Assembly: GCF_000613445.1 (NCBI RefSeq)
Contig: NZ_BAIZ01000011.1
Coordinates: 1-64,000 of the forward strand
Reading direction: 5' to 3'
From: Hoylesella shahii DSM 15611 = JCM 12083
GTDB lineage: Bacteria > Bacteroidota > Bacteroidia > Bacteroidales > Bacteroidaceae
Length of the DNA stretch: 64,000 bases
Shown here: one piece after another, positions 8,602 through 45,157 of the stretch
Layout: each line of letters starts with the position of its first letter
Numbering within the stretch: the stretch's first letter is position 1
Program-made: the position numbers and the translations under genes
The notes under the pieces: model-generated
Told to the model about the DNA's origin: nothing
Database searches by the model: none
Seen by the model: the letters and a program-made list of their open reading frames with translations, nothing else

Positions 8602-9215
8602 TGTAAAATAAAACGCACAAAATTTAACATTATGAGTGCGAAATTTGCAACCAAGTATGCGCTCGCTCGCAAATAATCGATTCTCGCGAAGGTTTCGAGG
8701 GGTGAAAATAAGCTTTGTTTTTGATTGTCGAAAAAACGAACTTTCGTTGAAATAAACCGTGTTTTCCGTTAGTTTTTGGGCTATTTGCAGCAAAATGCAC
8801 TGCAATATGCAGCAAAACGCAGTGCTATCTCCTAGTAAACGCAATGCTAACTCGTGCTAAACGCAAGGTAAAATGCAGCAAAACGCAAGGTAAAATGGTG
8901 CAAAACGTAGACGAAAGAGCGGGTTGAAGTGCACTAAAGGGTGCGAAATCTTCGCTTTTCGAAGGCCAAAACACCCCCAAAAAAGGGCTTTTTACCTGCT
9001 AAAAGCTGTTTTTGGGGCGATGAATTTTCGTGAATTGGCGAGCAAATAGAAAGGCGAAATGGTTCAAAATGCACGTTTTTTGCTCAAAATCGACGTAAAA
9101 ATAAAATGCGTGAGACCAGAAAGGGACAAAAAGCATGTTTTTGCGCCTTGTTTTTCGCTAGAATGGGTTGTCTTGGAGGGTGTGTTTTGTAAAATAATAA
9201 TATCAAATTTAACAT
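8602..9215. repeat. Interspersed non-coding element, copy A
   Basis: Bounded by two copies of a 28-29 bp motif, TGTAAA...TTTAACAT (8602-8630 and 9188-9215). Inside are a 22-bp-period array and blocks shared with copy C (44510-45157): TGAGTGC after the left border, GGGCTTTTTACCTGCT at 8985-9000 and CGCTAGAA at 9156-9163. Short open frames inside have no family features. The 1160-base gap 8352-9511 contains only this element, a terminator and a 23-bp duplication. Confidence 0.65.
8790..8912 (-). repeat. 22-bp tandem array in element A (six units, inverted)
   Basis: On the plus strand the motif AAA(A)YGYA ends at 8799, 8821, 8843, 8865, 8887 and 8909, a constant step of exactly 22 bases. Read on the minus strand the units start TTGCGTTTTG or close variants and end in TTACC, TTAGC or ATAGC. 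Units differ by up to eight bases but never in length. Confidence 0.9.
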
Positions 9216-28191: not shown

Positions 28192-29166
28192 TTAAAGTTG
28201 CGTGTTTGTTGTTTGGTGAGTGGTTAGAGCCTTGGCTGTGCTTTTCTTTTTAATCGTTACCACCCCTTTTTTCACCTCAGCCACAGCTCCCGAAATATTG
28301 CAAAGGCTAGTGAGTACATCGGCCAGTGGTGCGCCTGTAACCAGTTTTCCGTAGAGTGTTTCGTTGCAAAGGCTTGATTCCACTTGAAAGTTCACACCGT
28401 AATAATTCTCCAGATAGTTAACGACATCGGTCAATGGCATACCCTCCATGGGCAAAACACCCTTTAGGCGTTCTACATAGGCTGTGGCGTTTACCTTTGT
28501 TTTAGATGCAAATTCGCCCTGGGTAATGTTCAAACAATCGTTGGGTTGCAAATTCACCTTATCGTTTAAGGCGGTATTCACCTCCACTCTTCCTTCGGCT
28601 AGCACCACATTGCATCGTTTTTTGTTATAGCTATTAACACAAAAGTGAGTGCCAAGCACCTTCACGTCAAAACCTTGCGCATGCACCACAAAGGGCCTGT
28701 TGGCTTCGTGAGCCACTTCGAAGTAGGCTTCGCCCTTTAGATAGAGGTGGCGTGTGTGTTTATCAAAAGGTTTAGCATAACGAATCTGCGTGCGCGAATT
28801 GGCAGTTAGGCGTGTGCCATCGGGCAAAGTGAGTTGTAGGGTGTGGCCAGTGGGCACATTTATTTCCTGCATCACGCTTGTTTGCACTTGCTTATGCGCT
28901 GTGGATTGTGGGGTTGTGACCAATTGTTTTTGCGTGATGTTTAGCGCCAGCCACATGCTGCACATCATTAAGGTTACAGCCACAGCAGCGACAATGCGCC
29001 ATCGTTTGCGGTTTTGGCGTATCTTGTCGGCCTGTATTTTCTCGTATATACGGGCTGTGAGTCGTTCGTTGGAGCAGTTTACAGGTTCGGCTCGCGAGAT
29101 AAAATCTTGCAGTTTCAAGTCTTCTTCCGAACCATCAAACCGCATGTCGTATATATCCTTGTTCAT
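28192..29166 (-). CDS. FecR-family anti-sigma factor
   Basis: 324 residues. A cytoplasmic N-terminal part (1-58) is followed by one membrane helix (about 60-78, IVAAVAVTLMMCSMWLALNI). The periplasmic FecR domain (about 105-205; LTLPDGTRLTANSRTQIRYAKPFDKHTRHLYLKGEAYFEVAH, VLGTHFCVNSY) and a C-terminal DUF4974-type STN-binding region (LTDVVNYLENYYGVNFQV) follow. It holds the ECF sigma factor encoded 13 bases upstream until SusC signals substrate uptake. Confidence 0.95.
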   Translation of the reverse strand: MNKDIYDMRFDGSEEDLKLQDFISRAEPVNCSNERLTARIYEKIQADKIRQNRKRWRIVAAVAVTLMMCSMWLALNITQKQLVTTPQSTAHKQVQTSVMQEINVPTGHTLQLTLPDGTRLTANSRTQIRYAKPFDKHTRHLYLKGEAYFEVAHEANRPFVVHAQGFDVKVLGTHFCVNSYNKKRCNVVLAEGRVEVNTALNDKVNLQPNDCLNITQGEFASKTKVNATAYVERLKGVLPMEGMPLTDVVNYLENYYGVNFQVESSLCNETLYGKLVTGAPLADVLTSLCNISGAVAEVKKGVVTIKKKSTAKALTTHQTTNTQL

Positions 29167-29179
29167 GGGCGATAATGTT

Positions 29180-29779
29180 TTATTTGTTTTTTAGAAAGCT
29201 TGTAGACAGCTTAGCGCGATCTTTAAGACTTTGTCTGAGCGTTTGCACAGCCAGTGCCACATGATAATTCACGGTGGCGAGGGCAATACCCAGCATATTG
29301 GCAATGTCTTGGTAAGGCATTTTCTCAACTTTAGCCAAGAAGAAAACGTACTTGCATTTAGGAGGGAGCTTGTCGATGGCAGCATTGATGGCAGCCAATT
29401 CTTCGTTAGAAATAAGCGTATCGGCAGGTGTTTTCATGTCGGGGAAAGCAAAGTCGGCCATACCAAAATGCTCAACGCTAATCTGTTTCACGCGGTTACG
29501 TTCGCGTCGCAGATAGTCAATGCTTTTGTTATACACCAAACGTGTGAGCCATGCACGCACGTTTTGCAGCTCGATAAGCGTTTTGCGCATGCGCCATGCT
29601 TCTAGAAACACGTCGCTCACCACCTCTTCAGCCATTTCTCTGCACCTCAAAATGCCATAGGCGTGGCAATAAAGGGTGTTAGAATAACGGTTGATAAAGC
29701 CGTTGAAGGCCAATTGGCTTCCTTGTGAGATGAGCGTTAGTTCGTTATATTGTTCGTTCATAGGTGGCTTTGGGCGCAT
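29180..29779 (-). CDS. ECF RNA polymerase sigma factor (Bacteroidales PUL type)
   Basis: 199 residues, or 193 if the second Met (ATG ending at 29761) is the start. Region 2 (AFNGFINRYSNTLYCHAYGIL, AEEVVSDVFLEAWRMRKTL, VRAWLTRLVYNKSIDYLRRERNR) and region 4 (AAIDKLPPKCKYVFFLAKVEKMPYQDIANMLGIALATVNYHVALAVQTLRQSL) are complete. It should direct transcription of the downstream susCD operon once released by FecR. A TAAATTTG box at 29812-29819 suggests the gene itself is read from a housekeeping promoter. Confidence 0.95.
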   Translation of the reverse strand: MRPKPPMNEQYNELTLISQGSQLAFNGFINRYSNTLYCHAYGILRCREMAEEVVSDVFLEAWRMRKTLIELQNVRAWLTRLVYNKSIDYLRRERNRVKQISVEHFGMADFAFPDMKTPADTLISNEELAAINAAIDKLPPKCKYVFFLAKVEKMPYQDIANMLGIALATVNYHVALAVQTLRQSLKDRAKLSTSFLKNK

Positions 29780-30158: not shown

Positions 30159-30229
30159 TGTCCCATGGTGTAATGGTAGCACTACAGTTTTTGGTTCTGT
30201 CAGCGGTGGTTCGAGTCCATCTGGGACAA
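30159..30229 (+). tRNA. tRNA-Gln (anticodon TTG)
   Basis: 71 bases: acceptor stem TGTCCCA/TGGGACA, discriminator A, D-arm with TGGTGTAATGGTAGCA, anticodon loop containing TTG, T-arm GGTGG-TTCGAGT-CCATC. The CCA end is not encoded. The sequence closely resembles tRNA-Gln of other Bacteroidales. It is a single gene with its own promoter and terminator. Confidence 0.95.
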
Positions 30230-30270: not shown

Positions 30271-30400
30271 TTTTTGTAACTTAGGCTCGTGTTGGATGAT
30301 GAGCGATGACGAGGTTAATATTGTGATACGCCTTGTGGGTGAGCAGGTGGTTTTGGGCTAGTGGTGTGTAGCTGCGAGTGATGGCATCTAGTTTGGTTTT

Positions 30401-31071
30401 TGTAAAAATATTGTACTCTTTTTTAACATTGTGAGTGCCCGTTCTGCGTGTCAACCCGTCGTTGGTGCAGATTTTGGCTTGTATTTTGATGGTTTGTAAG
30501 CTCTTGATTGATTGAGGTTTACGTAATTTTAGTGCTATTTTTGCTCTTTTTTATGCGTTTTATGCCTGGTATATACAGTTTTTATAAAGGAGTCGACGGC
30601 TTTCTGTGGTTTTGTCTAATAGCGTTAGTTTTGCGTATTTTTATGGTCTGTTTTGTTTATTTCGTGTCTTTTTTCGTTAATTTCTTTCTGCTTCTCTTGC
30701 ATTTTATAGGTTTTAGTGCTGCGTTTTGTAGGAGTTAGCCTTGCGTTTTGTAGGAGTTAGCCTTGCGTTTTGTAGGAGATAGCGTTGCGTTTTGCTGTAC
30801 TTTACACACCTAGGAGGTGCAAAATGCGGAGCGAAAGCTGTTGTTTTATGTGCATTTTTATGCTTTTCTGTATGATGGTTTTTTGTGTTGTGAGTGCATC
30901 TACAACGACAAAAAAGGGCAAAAGCATAGTAAATGGCATGTTGAATGGTGCAGAGCCGTGACTAAAAAAGGGGCTTAGCGGTGTGTTTTCTATGGTTTTG
31001 GGGTGCAATTTCTTCTAGAAAGGTGGATTGGTTGGGATGTATTATGTAAAGAAAAGGAAACAATTTAACAT
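30401..31071. repeat. Interspersed non-coding element, copy B
   Basis: Borders TGTAAA...TTTAACAT at 30401-30429 and 31045-31071. The sequence TTTAACATTGTGAGTGCC after the left border is identical to copy C, and GCAAAAGCATAGTAAAT at 30918-30934 is identical to 44995-45011. It carries the 22-bp array at 30697-30806. It fills most of the gap between tRNA-Gln and the next gene; no coding potential is seen. A TATCTTTG box at 31143-31150 lies outside the element. Confidence 0.65.
30697..30806 (+). repeat. 22-bp tandem array in element B (five units)
   Basis: The TGC of each unit starts at 30698, 30720, 30742, 30764 and 30786, exactly 22 bases apart. The three middle units are nearly identical (TTGCGTTTTGTAGGAG followed by TTAGCC or ATAGCG); the outer ones are more divergent. 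Confidence 0.92.
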
Positions 31072-39938: not shown

Positions 39939-40080
39939 GGCAACGCAAATGTTGCGAGCTTACAAATAAATGAAAATAAATAATCACAAACTTGAGTGCG
40001 GGAAGGAGTGGAAACCAACTATCAAATCAACTTAATTAAACCCCATTCGCTTTCCTTTGCTCCTAAAGAAAAATATAGTT

Positions 40081-41466
40081 ATGAAGTATATTAAATCAAT
40101 GATGTTCGCCATTGCACTGATAATGGCTGCACCCATCTTCTTTACTGCTTGTCAGGAAGATGCTCCCGAGATTAATTACACGATGAACGTGTCTGTAGTA
40201 AACGACTTTACAAAGGTTGTGCAGGCTATCAACGACGGTTTTCTTAAGAACCAGCAGGCGGTAGACAGTCTTACCAAAGTTCTTGATAAGATGAATACCA
40301 CGCAACAACAGAAACTGGAAGCTATTTCCGACATCTTGAATGCTGTAAACACTACGCTTGAGACTAAACTTGCTGCTGTAGAAGCGGCTCTTAATGCGCA
40401 AACTTTATCATTAGAAGCTAAGATGCAACTGTTGGTAAAGGCTTTTAATGCGCAAACTTTATCGTTAGAAGCTAAGTTGGAGGCGTTGAAAACGGCTATA
40501 AACAACCTGCCAGACTATTCTGCAAAGCTTGATGCACTTACCGAAGCTATCAACGCACTCCCCAATTACGAAGATAAGCTTGCTGCTATTCAGAGTGCTA
40601 TCGCTGCAATGCCCAACTATTCTGCAAAGTTCGACGCACTTGCTAGGGCTATCAACGCGCTTCCTAATTATGGCACTCAGCTTACTGCCATACAAAAAGC
40701 CATTGTTGCAATGCCTAATTATGAAAGTCAGTTCAAAGCCATTGTTGATGCTCTCGGCTTGTTGAAGAAAGAAATAGAAAAGGTTGGCCCTGCACAAAGT
40801 GGTATGTCTGCAGAATTGGCTAAGGCTACTACTGCTATTACGAATCTTATCGCGACAGTGAAAACTGGTAATGAAGACGAAACTAAGGCTCTTGAAGCTA
40901 TTGTTAAGAAGCTTGAGGAATTAAAAGAAAAGATTGGTACGGGTAAACCCAGTGGTTCTGGCAACACTGGTGGCGTAGGAGAAGACCCTGATGATGTATA
41001 TGGTAACAATTTAGAATTTAATAAGATTGCATTTGGCGACATCATTGGACTTATTGATAAGATGAACTCAAAGAATTTTGAAGTAACTAAAGGTATTATT
41101 TTACTCAGAACGAGCGAAGGTAGGTTTGCGAAGGTTGAAATTAGCCCTGCAAGAACGGGTTATCATATTGCTTCGGATTACGATAAATCCAGACTGGCAA
41201 TAAGTTATATTCTTTATGATGCTAACGGAAAGGTGAAGAATAAGAACTCCGTACATTTCGAAGCACGTTATAATAAAGATGGGACTCCGGTTACTAAACC
41301 AGAGTTTGAGGTGGACTTTGACTCTGGTAACAAAGGTGGCATAGGCTCCGATCTACGTTTTACGGTGAATATTAGATACGAACATTCCTTACTCGCGGAT
41401 GTAATAGATGGTGTAAAATTTAAATGTCTGAATAACACAAAGGCGGTGACTTATCATAAATATTAG
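40081..41466 (+). CDS. Lipoprotein with five 17-residue repeats and helical stalk
   Basis: 461 residues from the ATG at 40081; an earlier in-frame TTG-type start at 40057 only adds residues before a normal signal. Lipobox FFTAC (Cys24). Residues about 30-135 are helical and include a duplicated AQTLSLEAK segment. Residues about 139-223 are five exact-length 17-residue repeats (AIN.LPNY..KL.AI..). A helical segment and a Gly/Ser linker (KPSGSGNTGGVGED) precede a C-terminal beta domain (about 310-461). The layout suggests a surface or periplasmic stalk carrying a small globular head. No named family recognised. Confidence 0.75.
   Translation: MKYIKSMMFAIALIMAAPIFFTACQEDAPEINYTMNVSVVNDFTKVVQAINDGFLKNQQAVDSLTKVLDKMNTTQQQKLEAISDILNAVNTTLETKLAAVEAALNAQTLSLEAKMQLLVKAFNAQTLSLEAKLEALKTAINNLPDYSAKLDALTEAINALPNYEDKLAAIQSAIAAMPNYSAKFDALARAINALPNYGTQLTAIQKAIVAMPNYESQFKAIVDALGLLKKEIEKVGPAQSGMSAELAKATTAITNLIATVKTGNEDETKALEAIVKKLEELKEKIGTGKPSGSGNTGGVGEDPDDVYGNNLEFNKIAFGDIIGLIDKMNSKNFEVTKGIILLRTSEGRFAKVEISPARTGYHIASDYDKSRLAISYILYDANGKVKNKNSVHFEARYNKDGTPVTKPEFEVDFDSGNKGGIGSDLRFTVNIRYEHSLLADVIDGVKFKCLNNTKAVTYHKY
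40495..40749 (+). repeat. Five in-frame 51-bp repeats
   Basis: Units start at 40495, 40546, 40597, 40648 and 40699. Each encodes 17 residues of the pattern AI-x-x-(L/M)-P-(N/D)-Y-x-x-(K/Q)-(L/F)-x-A-(I/L). The DNA differs between units mainly at third positions and in the variable residues. Confidence 0.9.
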
Positions 41467-44453: not shown

Positions 44454-44509
44454 GGGCTGGTAAGGGGTTGTTACGTGTCGGTGTTTTCTTTGCTTTTTAC
44501 GATGTGGAT

Positions 44510-45157
44510 TGTAAAATAAACGCACTATTTTTTAACATTGTGAGTGCCTTCGTTGCAAAAAATCTGGACAACGGGTGTATTTTCGGGCGTATTTTTAAAG
44601 TTTGCAGCCGTTTTATGGCTTACACTCTTGCTGTGTACTGCTGTCTACTGGGTTGCTTATTGTTTGCTTCTTATTTTATTGTTTATCTGTTGGATGTGTT
44701 GTATATCTTTGATTTTGGCAACGAATAATAAGAATAGGTGCATTAAAAGTTATAAAATGCTACGACGTTTTTTGTTCTTTTGCGCTGCGTTTAGCAGCAA
44801 AATACACTGCGTTTTGCTGCATATTACCTTGCGTTTTGGTGCATATTACCTTGCGTTTTGCTGCAAAACGCAAGGTTAAAAGGTGCTTTTTGCAAAACCA
44901 AAACCCATGTTCTCTGCTAAATAACATGTAAAATGGGGGTGAAATCGTGTTTGCGCGGATGTTGTTTTGGCGCAATTTTTCTCAAAATAGAAGTGCAAAA
45001 GCATAGTAAATTGCAAAAAGGGCGCTCAATTCCTTTCTAAAGACCTCGCGTTTTTTGTCGAAAACAGGGCTTTTACCTGCTGTTTAGCATGTTTGTTGCG
45101 CTAGAAGGGGATGGTAAACTGGGTGTGCTTTGTAAAGAAACGTTACCGATTTAACAT
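44510..45157. repeat. Interspersed non-coding element, copy C
   Basis: Borders TGTAAA...TTTAACAT at 44510-44538 and 45131-45157. It contains a four-unit 22-bp array ending in a palindrome, GGGCTTTTACCTGCT (45067-45081, shared with copy A), GCAAAAGCATAGTAAAT (44995-45011, shared with copy B) and CGCTAGAA (45099-45106, shared with A). Short open frames inside lack family features. Bases 45158-45558 hold no gene, only -7-type boxes. Confidence 0.65.
44785..44876 (+). repeat. 22-bp tandem array in element C, ending in a 29-bp palindrome
   Basis: Unit TGC positions 44786, 44808, 44830 and 44852 are exactly 22 bases apart. The last unit runs into its own reverse complement. Bases 44847-44875 form a perfect inverted repeat with 14-base arms (ACCTTGCGTTTTGC and its complement) around one central base. 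Confidence 0.9.

Follow-up and report, generated by a model that had tools for sequence, protein, structure and literature searches.

The three tandem arrays in the window, the 64,000-nt stretch of Hoylesella shahii DSM 15611 = JCM 12083 that was analyzed here (contig C132 of the 3.49-Mb draft genome G000), are members of a genome-wide family of arrays with a step of 22 bp. Array loci keep apart from one another, recurring every 16 to 22 kb where detection was good. Judging from the sequences compared, the 22-bp step appears to be general in the GTDB family, with unit letters that seem to be specific to each genome. This layout, with different letters in related bacteria, suggests an undescribed means of marking or organizing the chromosome.

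The two-core pattern TGCGTTTTGN13TGCGTTTTG (≤3 mismatches) had 12 matches in the window, 12 of 12 inside arrays 1 to 3 (Table 1), against a mean of 0.26 and a maximum of 2 in 100 dinucleotide shuffles, which bears out the exact 22-bp step at three loci noticed in an earlier sequence-only reading of this DNA. That reading had the loci right and the spans slightly too short: it correctly gave array 1 six units, but its span of 8799 to 8909 holds five, the real span being 8778 to 8909 with cores on the minus strand. As it also stated, there are no CRISPR-like spacers; the units abut at 22 bp without unique sequences between repeats, and a CRISPR array was rejected on this ground. Pfam searches of the 10 ORFs adjoining the window arrays returned SIR2, FecR, an ECF-type sigma factor, DUF6242, and a weak DUF5640/lipocalin-like match, while the remaining five had no Pfam match and no replication protein was found by Pfam among the 10. 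The FecR and ECF-type sigma factor genes form a pair at 28192 to 29779, and a tRNA (30159 to 30229) lies between this pair and array 2.

Table 1. Arrays and associated blocks in the window
Feature	Positions	Strand	Description
Array 1	8778..8909	-	Six 22-bp units, TGCGTTTTG-like cores
Array 2	30698..30807	+	Five 22-bp units
Array 3	44786..44873	+	Four 22-bp units; the fourth passes into an inverted core
AAATTTAACATTATGAGTGC block 5′ of array 1	8620..8639	+	Motif also near the left edge of the Prevotella conceptionensis repeat consensus
GCAAATAATCGATTCTCGCGAAGGTTT-like leader block, array 1	8669..8695	+	Common to L042 and the P. conceptionensis consensus
Leader block, array 2	30400..30439	+	85% identical to 44509-44548; repeat family D7
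Leader block, array 3	44509..44548	+	Repeat family D7
Tail block, array 2	30914..30938	+	92% identical to 44991-45015; repeat family D17
Tail block, array 3	44991..45015	+	Repeat family D17

The same pattern with ≤1 mismatch had 313 matches in the whole of G000 and its reversed control pattern had 0, so the arrays are genome-wide; their occurrence only here, which the earlier reading named as refuting it, is contradicted. In a 464-kb sample of this genome (the window and 20 further 20-kb stretches), 20 regions were found and 19 were counted as arrays, a chance pair at L040:2627 being dropped. The core pairs were spaced at 22 bp (48 pairs), 44 (35), 66 (23), 88 (12), and 110 bp (5); between 20 and 24 bp, the off-step spacings amounted to one at 23, with none at 20, 21, or 24. 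Inverted cores were also in phase, at 12 mod 22 and less often at 2 mod 22. The number of units differed between arrays, and adjacent units were on average 78% identical (minimum 59%, 63 junctions), confirming the constant length with diverged sequence described before.

A search with TGCGTTTTG matched few genomes: 10 of the 201 family genomes and 12 of the 200 genus genomes, counting G000. Because several of these matches kept the step but carried a different unit, the next scan for periodicity used no motif and covered 918 kb of family genomes in 54 stretches. Tandem Repeats Finder returned 18 non-coding arrays of period 22, whereas periods 20, 21, 23, and 24 together gave 2. Self-matching non-coding segments, counted with microsatellite-like segments kept, numbered 19 at lag 22, nine at lag 14, seven at lag 44, and six at lags 21 and 28, and shuffled stretches gave none. 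The microsatellite-filtered count covered 52 of the 54 stretches (L159 and L162 were left out) and gave 15 lag-22 segments in the genus versus 7 at the ten other lags from 17 to 27 combined, and 8 versus 1 in other genera of the family. By contrast, other families of the phylum (20 stretches, 311 kb) had 1 lag-22 segment versus 4 at other lags from 17 to 27, and 50 kb of E. coli had no lag-22 segment. The pattern-hit stretches L167 to L172 were excluded from the Tandem Repeats Finder, lag, and palindromy counts; L159 to L166, from genomes with matches to the reversed control pattern, were kept and gave 4 of the 15 genus segments. A lag-22 segment was present in 17 of 52 single family stretches (12/29 in the genus, 5/23 in others), a proportion that we count against the reading preferred below.

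Each of the seven other family genomes checked (G178, G069, G056, G243, G005, RUG11701, and G150) had its own unit, while G000 and the near relative Prevotella conceptionensis have their unit in common. The G178 unit TGGAACN3GTTCCA, palindromic and thus read on both strands, occurred as pairs at 511 places (control 0; none in G005 or G069), and the G069 unit AGTACTCGN14AGTACTCG had 520 matches over both strands (control 1; 1 in G178). The units of G056, G243, and G005 were found 78 times (control 0; none in two other genomes), 17 times (control 0; 1 in G056), and at 17 places (control 0), respectively. In RUG11701, whose arrays are dyads of the form CGTTTTG-spacer-CAAAACG, the GCGTTTTG pair with other linkers had 134 matches (control 2). 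The palindrome GCGTTTCTATATAGAAACGC of G150 occurred at 40 places (control 2) and stood beside 22-step units in both loci read. Unit length, which the sequence-only reading wanted checked in relatives, therefore does not vary freely but stays at 22 where the units are unrelated, and this supports its proposal of selection on spacing with phased protein binding.

Several observations fall outside this pattern. Two G150 palindromes (C1:255272 and 255295) are 23 bp apart, off the 22-bp step. One G178 stretch (L056) carries an array of the G000 kind despite the main unit of that genome, which could be a transfer, a relic, or contamination; since G178 has a few such arrays (a looser pattern gave 4 matches versus 3 for the control), a genome is not strictly limited to one unit, which also counts against the reading preferred below. 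Outside the phylum, 22-bp arrays with TGCGTTTTG cores and other linkers were seen in L071, L103, L104 (Treponema RGIG5076), and L107 (a horse Treponemataceae MAG), the two genomes having 21 matches of this type versus 1 for the control and 13 versus 2.

The arrays might be ordinary functionless minisatellites in dispersed repeats, with the 22 bp held by slippage only, and the closest described element in make-up, BrickBuilt of Porphyromonas gingivalis, could be read neutrally in the same way. Units do duplicate, the unit number varies between arrays, and BrickBuilt is a minisatellite in a MITE from a related member of the order, with a 23-nt unit, 19 copies per genome, and TIRs resembling IS5-family elements (PMC4596501). 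It likewise consists of imperfect, spacerless, intergenic tandem repeats, flanked by a leader and a tail in dispersed copies, and some copies were gained or lost between strains (PMC4596501). A leader and tail of this type also accompany arrays of the present kind, in 48 long copies (46 of them in P. conceptionensis), with shorter common blocks at the window arrays. The earlier reading, which knew of no fitting described family, did not mention this similar element. The BrickBuilt unit is 23 nt rather than 22, its range by the BLAST searches in that paper was limited to P. gingivalis and P. gulae, and its accessible text reports neither a conserved step across unrelated sequences nor a distance between loci (PMC4596501). 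A BrickBuilt-like TIR, GAGACCTTTGCA, had 2 matches with 2 mismatches in the window (7143 and 45569) versus 6.2 by chance, with no pair flanking an array. Neutral slippage fails to explain a 22-bp step common to unrelated sequences, or the almost complete lack of off-step spacings despite 22% unit divergence.

The anatomy of the unit was read in 420 kb of G178, where 110 sites with ≤2 arm mismatches were found and every spacing up to 200 bp was 22, 44, or 66. These sites formed 27 arrays (16 four-site, 10 three-site, and 1 two-site) plus 14 single sites. The arms were near-invariant, and the center and linker were mostly free, apart from one T and one A, which make up a second dyad at a distance of 11 bp; near-invariant arms beside free centers are likewise unexplained by neutral minisatellites. 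About half of the arrays share flanks, and 13 of the 27 were left after a redundancy filter. In an ungapped alignment of these 13, weak in-phase conservation extended over about four units on either side of the core (0.66, 0.46, 0.42, and 0.24 bits versus 0.08 by chance), to which common descent of the loci may contribute. Scored with the core matrix, an in-phase signal was found in the two core-adjacent units only and none further, which counts against the preferred reading. None of the 27 arrays lay inside an ORF, and the median intergenic gap was 875 bp with an array compared with 307 bp overall. Sixteen of the 27 stood between convergent genes, an orientation that makes up 34 of the 134 gaps of ≥150 bp and 34% of gap bases.

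This convergent placement, and the fact that palindromic units would fold, could favor transcribed arrays of small RNA hairpins, acting as terminators or structured RNA, as the sequence-only reading had considered. However, the covariation check that it suggested revealed no compensation in G178, G000, or P. conceptionensis. At arm position 6 of the G178 unit, 53 changes were one-sided and 7 were two-sided; of the 7, 3 paired and 4 did not, against 11.5 two-sided changes expected under independence. Position 3 had 1 compensated change versus 0.4 expected. Over 82 units of G000 and 302 of P. conceptionensis, pairing at nine dyad positions was −0.10 to +0.03 off the independent expectation. Covariation between symmetric units in G178 had no consistent pattern, Rfam at gathering thresholds found only a tRNA in the window, and gene orientation around the P. 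conceptionensis-type copies was mixed. We therefore give the RNA hairpins very little credence. The units are best described as probable dyads with independently varying arms, which points to selection on DNA sites and not on RNA pairing. Among units from the sampled relatives, 7 of 28 were palindromic at p <.05, and most were not palindromic by the measure used. At one G178 locus (127456) the outer units are complementary, and in L176, L183, and L217 a palindrome with a short linker occurs in both orientations within one array.

For the spacing along the chromosome, arrays in one intergenic gap were counted once, so that the 27 arrays of G178 make 26 loci. In this genome, with complete detection over 420 kb, the mean interval was 15.9 kb, the longest was 33.4 kb, and the CV was 0.43, whereas random draws from its intergenic gaps gave CVs of 0.84 to 0.90 and reached 0.43 in ≤1 of 10,000 (P at most 1e-4). 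The locus lists of G000, P. conceptionensis, and G069 comprise the exact or near-exact matches listed and are incomplete, their counts being at least those given. Among the matches listed, G000 had 31 intervals of 9.2 to 37.7 kb (mean 19.9 kb), contigs 1 and 2 of P. conceptionensis had 1 of 49 intervals under 8 kb versus 14.8 expected, and G069 had 2 of 39 versus 9.5 expected on contigs with ≥3 loci, or 3 such intervals over all contigs. G150 had 0 of 36 intervals under 8 kb versus 3.1 expected, with P only 0.12 at 5 kb. G056 had 0 of 60 intervals under 5 kb versus 6.9 expected; its 7 intervals under 8 kb versus 10.6 expected are no significant deficit, and its CV of 1.14, from an incomplete locus list, counts, with this and the G150 value, against the preferred reading. 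When the six genomes were pooled, 2 of 228 intervals were under 5 kb versus 34.4 expected (sd 4.8, minimum 17 in 20,000 simulations), and 12 of 228 were under 8 kb versus 52.4 expected. Even spacing as such was thus seen only in G178; for the other genomes, whose lists are incomplete, the result is a deficit of short intervals. Such a shortage in genomes with unrelated units is unexpected for neutral minisatellites, a reading already disfavored that we consider improbable. It fits either selected chromosomal placement or insertion with target immunity.

The explanation that we prefer, at a little short of even confidence, is that the arrays are cooperative putative binding sites for a fast-evolving DNA-binding dimer with a chromosome-scale role. 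Each array would be a cluster of candidate sites for a sequence-specific dimeric protein, and because 22 bp is about two helical turns, bound dimers would be aligned on one face of the helix. Phased dyads with free centers and linkers match the expected look of cooperative dimer binding at two helical turns. Assembly may begin on strong central units and extend over weaker in-phase sites, and the assemblies could provide regularly spaced marks or anchor points on the chromosome, as a domain boundary, a tether, or a segregation or division signal. Protein specificity and sites would co-evolve rapidly, and the sites would presumably spread via copying of the surrounding DNA, so that their places turn over between species while the spacing is kept. 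More tentatively, the GTDB family (Prevotella and other genera) may possess an undescribed chromosome-organizing system of nucleoprotein-filament nucleation dyads, with a fixed 22-bp step, roughly even spacing, and a fast-evolving putative reader protein that differs in specificity from species to species, with step and spacing conserved. If true, it would be a bacterial counterpart of fast-evolving centromere or insulator systems. To our knowledge, chromosome marking and division in these bacteria are largely unknown, and the question is testable, since bait DNA for finding the binding protein can be read from each genome.

The chief rival, which we regard as unlikely although it keeps real weight, is that the arrays belong to non-autonomous mobile elements, as the parts bound by a transposase or recombinase, with the gaps due to target immunity and the letter change to turnover of element families. 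A scan of genome contigs for three exact cores returned 73 stretches, 60 of them from Prevotella conceptionensis 9403948. The other 13 came from Treponema RGIG5076, the horse Treponemataceae MAG, Bacteroidales Cc175_bin60, Prevotellaceae RUG11701, two uncultured Prevotella MAGs, and three minisatellite-like records; L085, L089, and L123 were put aside as apparent plain perfect minisatellites. In P. conceptionensis the arrays occupy the middle of a dispersed repeat of ~670 bp that has a sharp left edge (TTTTGTCTAGTTTTCAG..TTTAACATTATGAGTGCC) and a tail terminating close to TATTGTAAAATAAAAG; an 8-bp microsatellite often comes next. With the G000 element L042:9356-10030 as query, blastn found 48 long copies, of which 46 were at the 60 P. 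conceptionensis loci. The G000 sample contained the other 2 (L041 and L042 itself), and there the full repeat with leader and tail accompanies only 2 of the 19 arrays. Neighboring genes were callable for 38 of the 48 copies, with orientations (−,−) in 16, (+,+) in 8, convergent in 8, and divergent in 6. Neither this repeat nor the mutual avoidance of array loci was part of the earlier account, which overall was partly supported.

The places of the arrays differ between G000 and P. conceptionensis. Thirteen P. conceptionensis loci had a syntenic stretch in the G000 sample, and at all 4 with flanks aligned on both sides of the array, the core pair was absent from the G000 gap; in the reverse comparison, for one G000 array with one aligned flank, 1,050 bp of P. 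conceptionensis contained no core pair. This turnover and the location in dispersed repeats, expected of a mobile element, count against the preferred reading and keep the mobile-element explanation alive, as do the common flanks of about half of the G178 arrays. Tn7-type ends carry multiple 22-bp TnsB sites (PMC9371665). Elements of this type bear such sites terminally and encode their transposase, whereas the arrays here are in the middle of short repeats. Tn7 and Mu show target immunity, which would space copies, and a hard distance with saturation could yield a similar CV, so that spacing alone is not decisive. On the other hand, no terminal inverted repeats, clean empty sites, or target duplications were seen between G000 and P. 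conceptionensis, whose intergenic DNA is too diverged to place edges, and all G178 intervals are ≤33.4 kb, a ceiling that immunity alone would not impose. Three points favor placement selection over target immunity: the recurrence of the layout with unrelated letters in single genomes of several genera, the failure to find transposon ends, and in-phase conservation that extends past the core. Should the mobile-element explanation be right, an element family would fill whole chromosomes at kept distances, which is likewise undescribed in the literature searched.

Regarding function, the nearest case by analogy may be the Noc sites of Bacillus subtilis, ~70 palindromic chromosomal sites whose bound protein spreads on DNA (PMC4331003). 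Palindromic sites dispersed over the chromosome also occur here, but Noc sites, as far as the accessible text describes them, are discrete and not 22-bp arrays (PMC4331003). REP/BIME repeats with RAYT transposases are genome-specific palindromic extragenic repeats in >100 copies (PMC2817692). The arrays resemble them in genome specificity, palindromic extragenic units, and high copy number. We know of no fixed 22-bp step in REP/BIME. Plasmid iterons and parC-type arrays are tandem sites with a fixed helical step and cooperative binding, at one or a few loci beside rep or par genes, whereas the arrays here are dispersed, with 19 in 464 kb. No description of step-conserved or evenly placed 22-bp arrays was found in the literature searched, which comprised few subscription journals and no preprints.

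Other repeats were observed alongside the arrays. A true MITE-like element of ~155 bp with inverted ends TATAGTCAAACAGAATTG was seen in L101, L108, L061, and G398 contigs; its ends had 23 exact matches in P. conceptionensis, too few to serve as a spacing control. Microsatellites of 8 bp, (GAGTTGAT)n, lie to the right of many P. conceptionensis elements, with the inverse to the left (e.g., L127 and L108). An array of the 8-bp microsatellite type, ATTAACTC, is present at 811 to 932 of the window, and 54-bp and 102-bp repeats, both multiples of three in length, occur at 40386 to 40722 within the ORF at 40057 to 41466.
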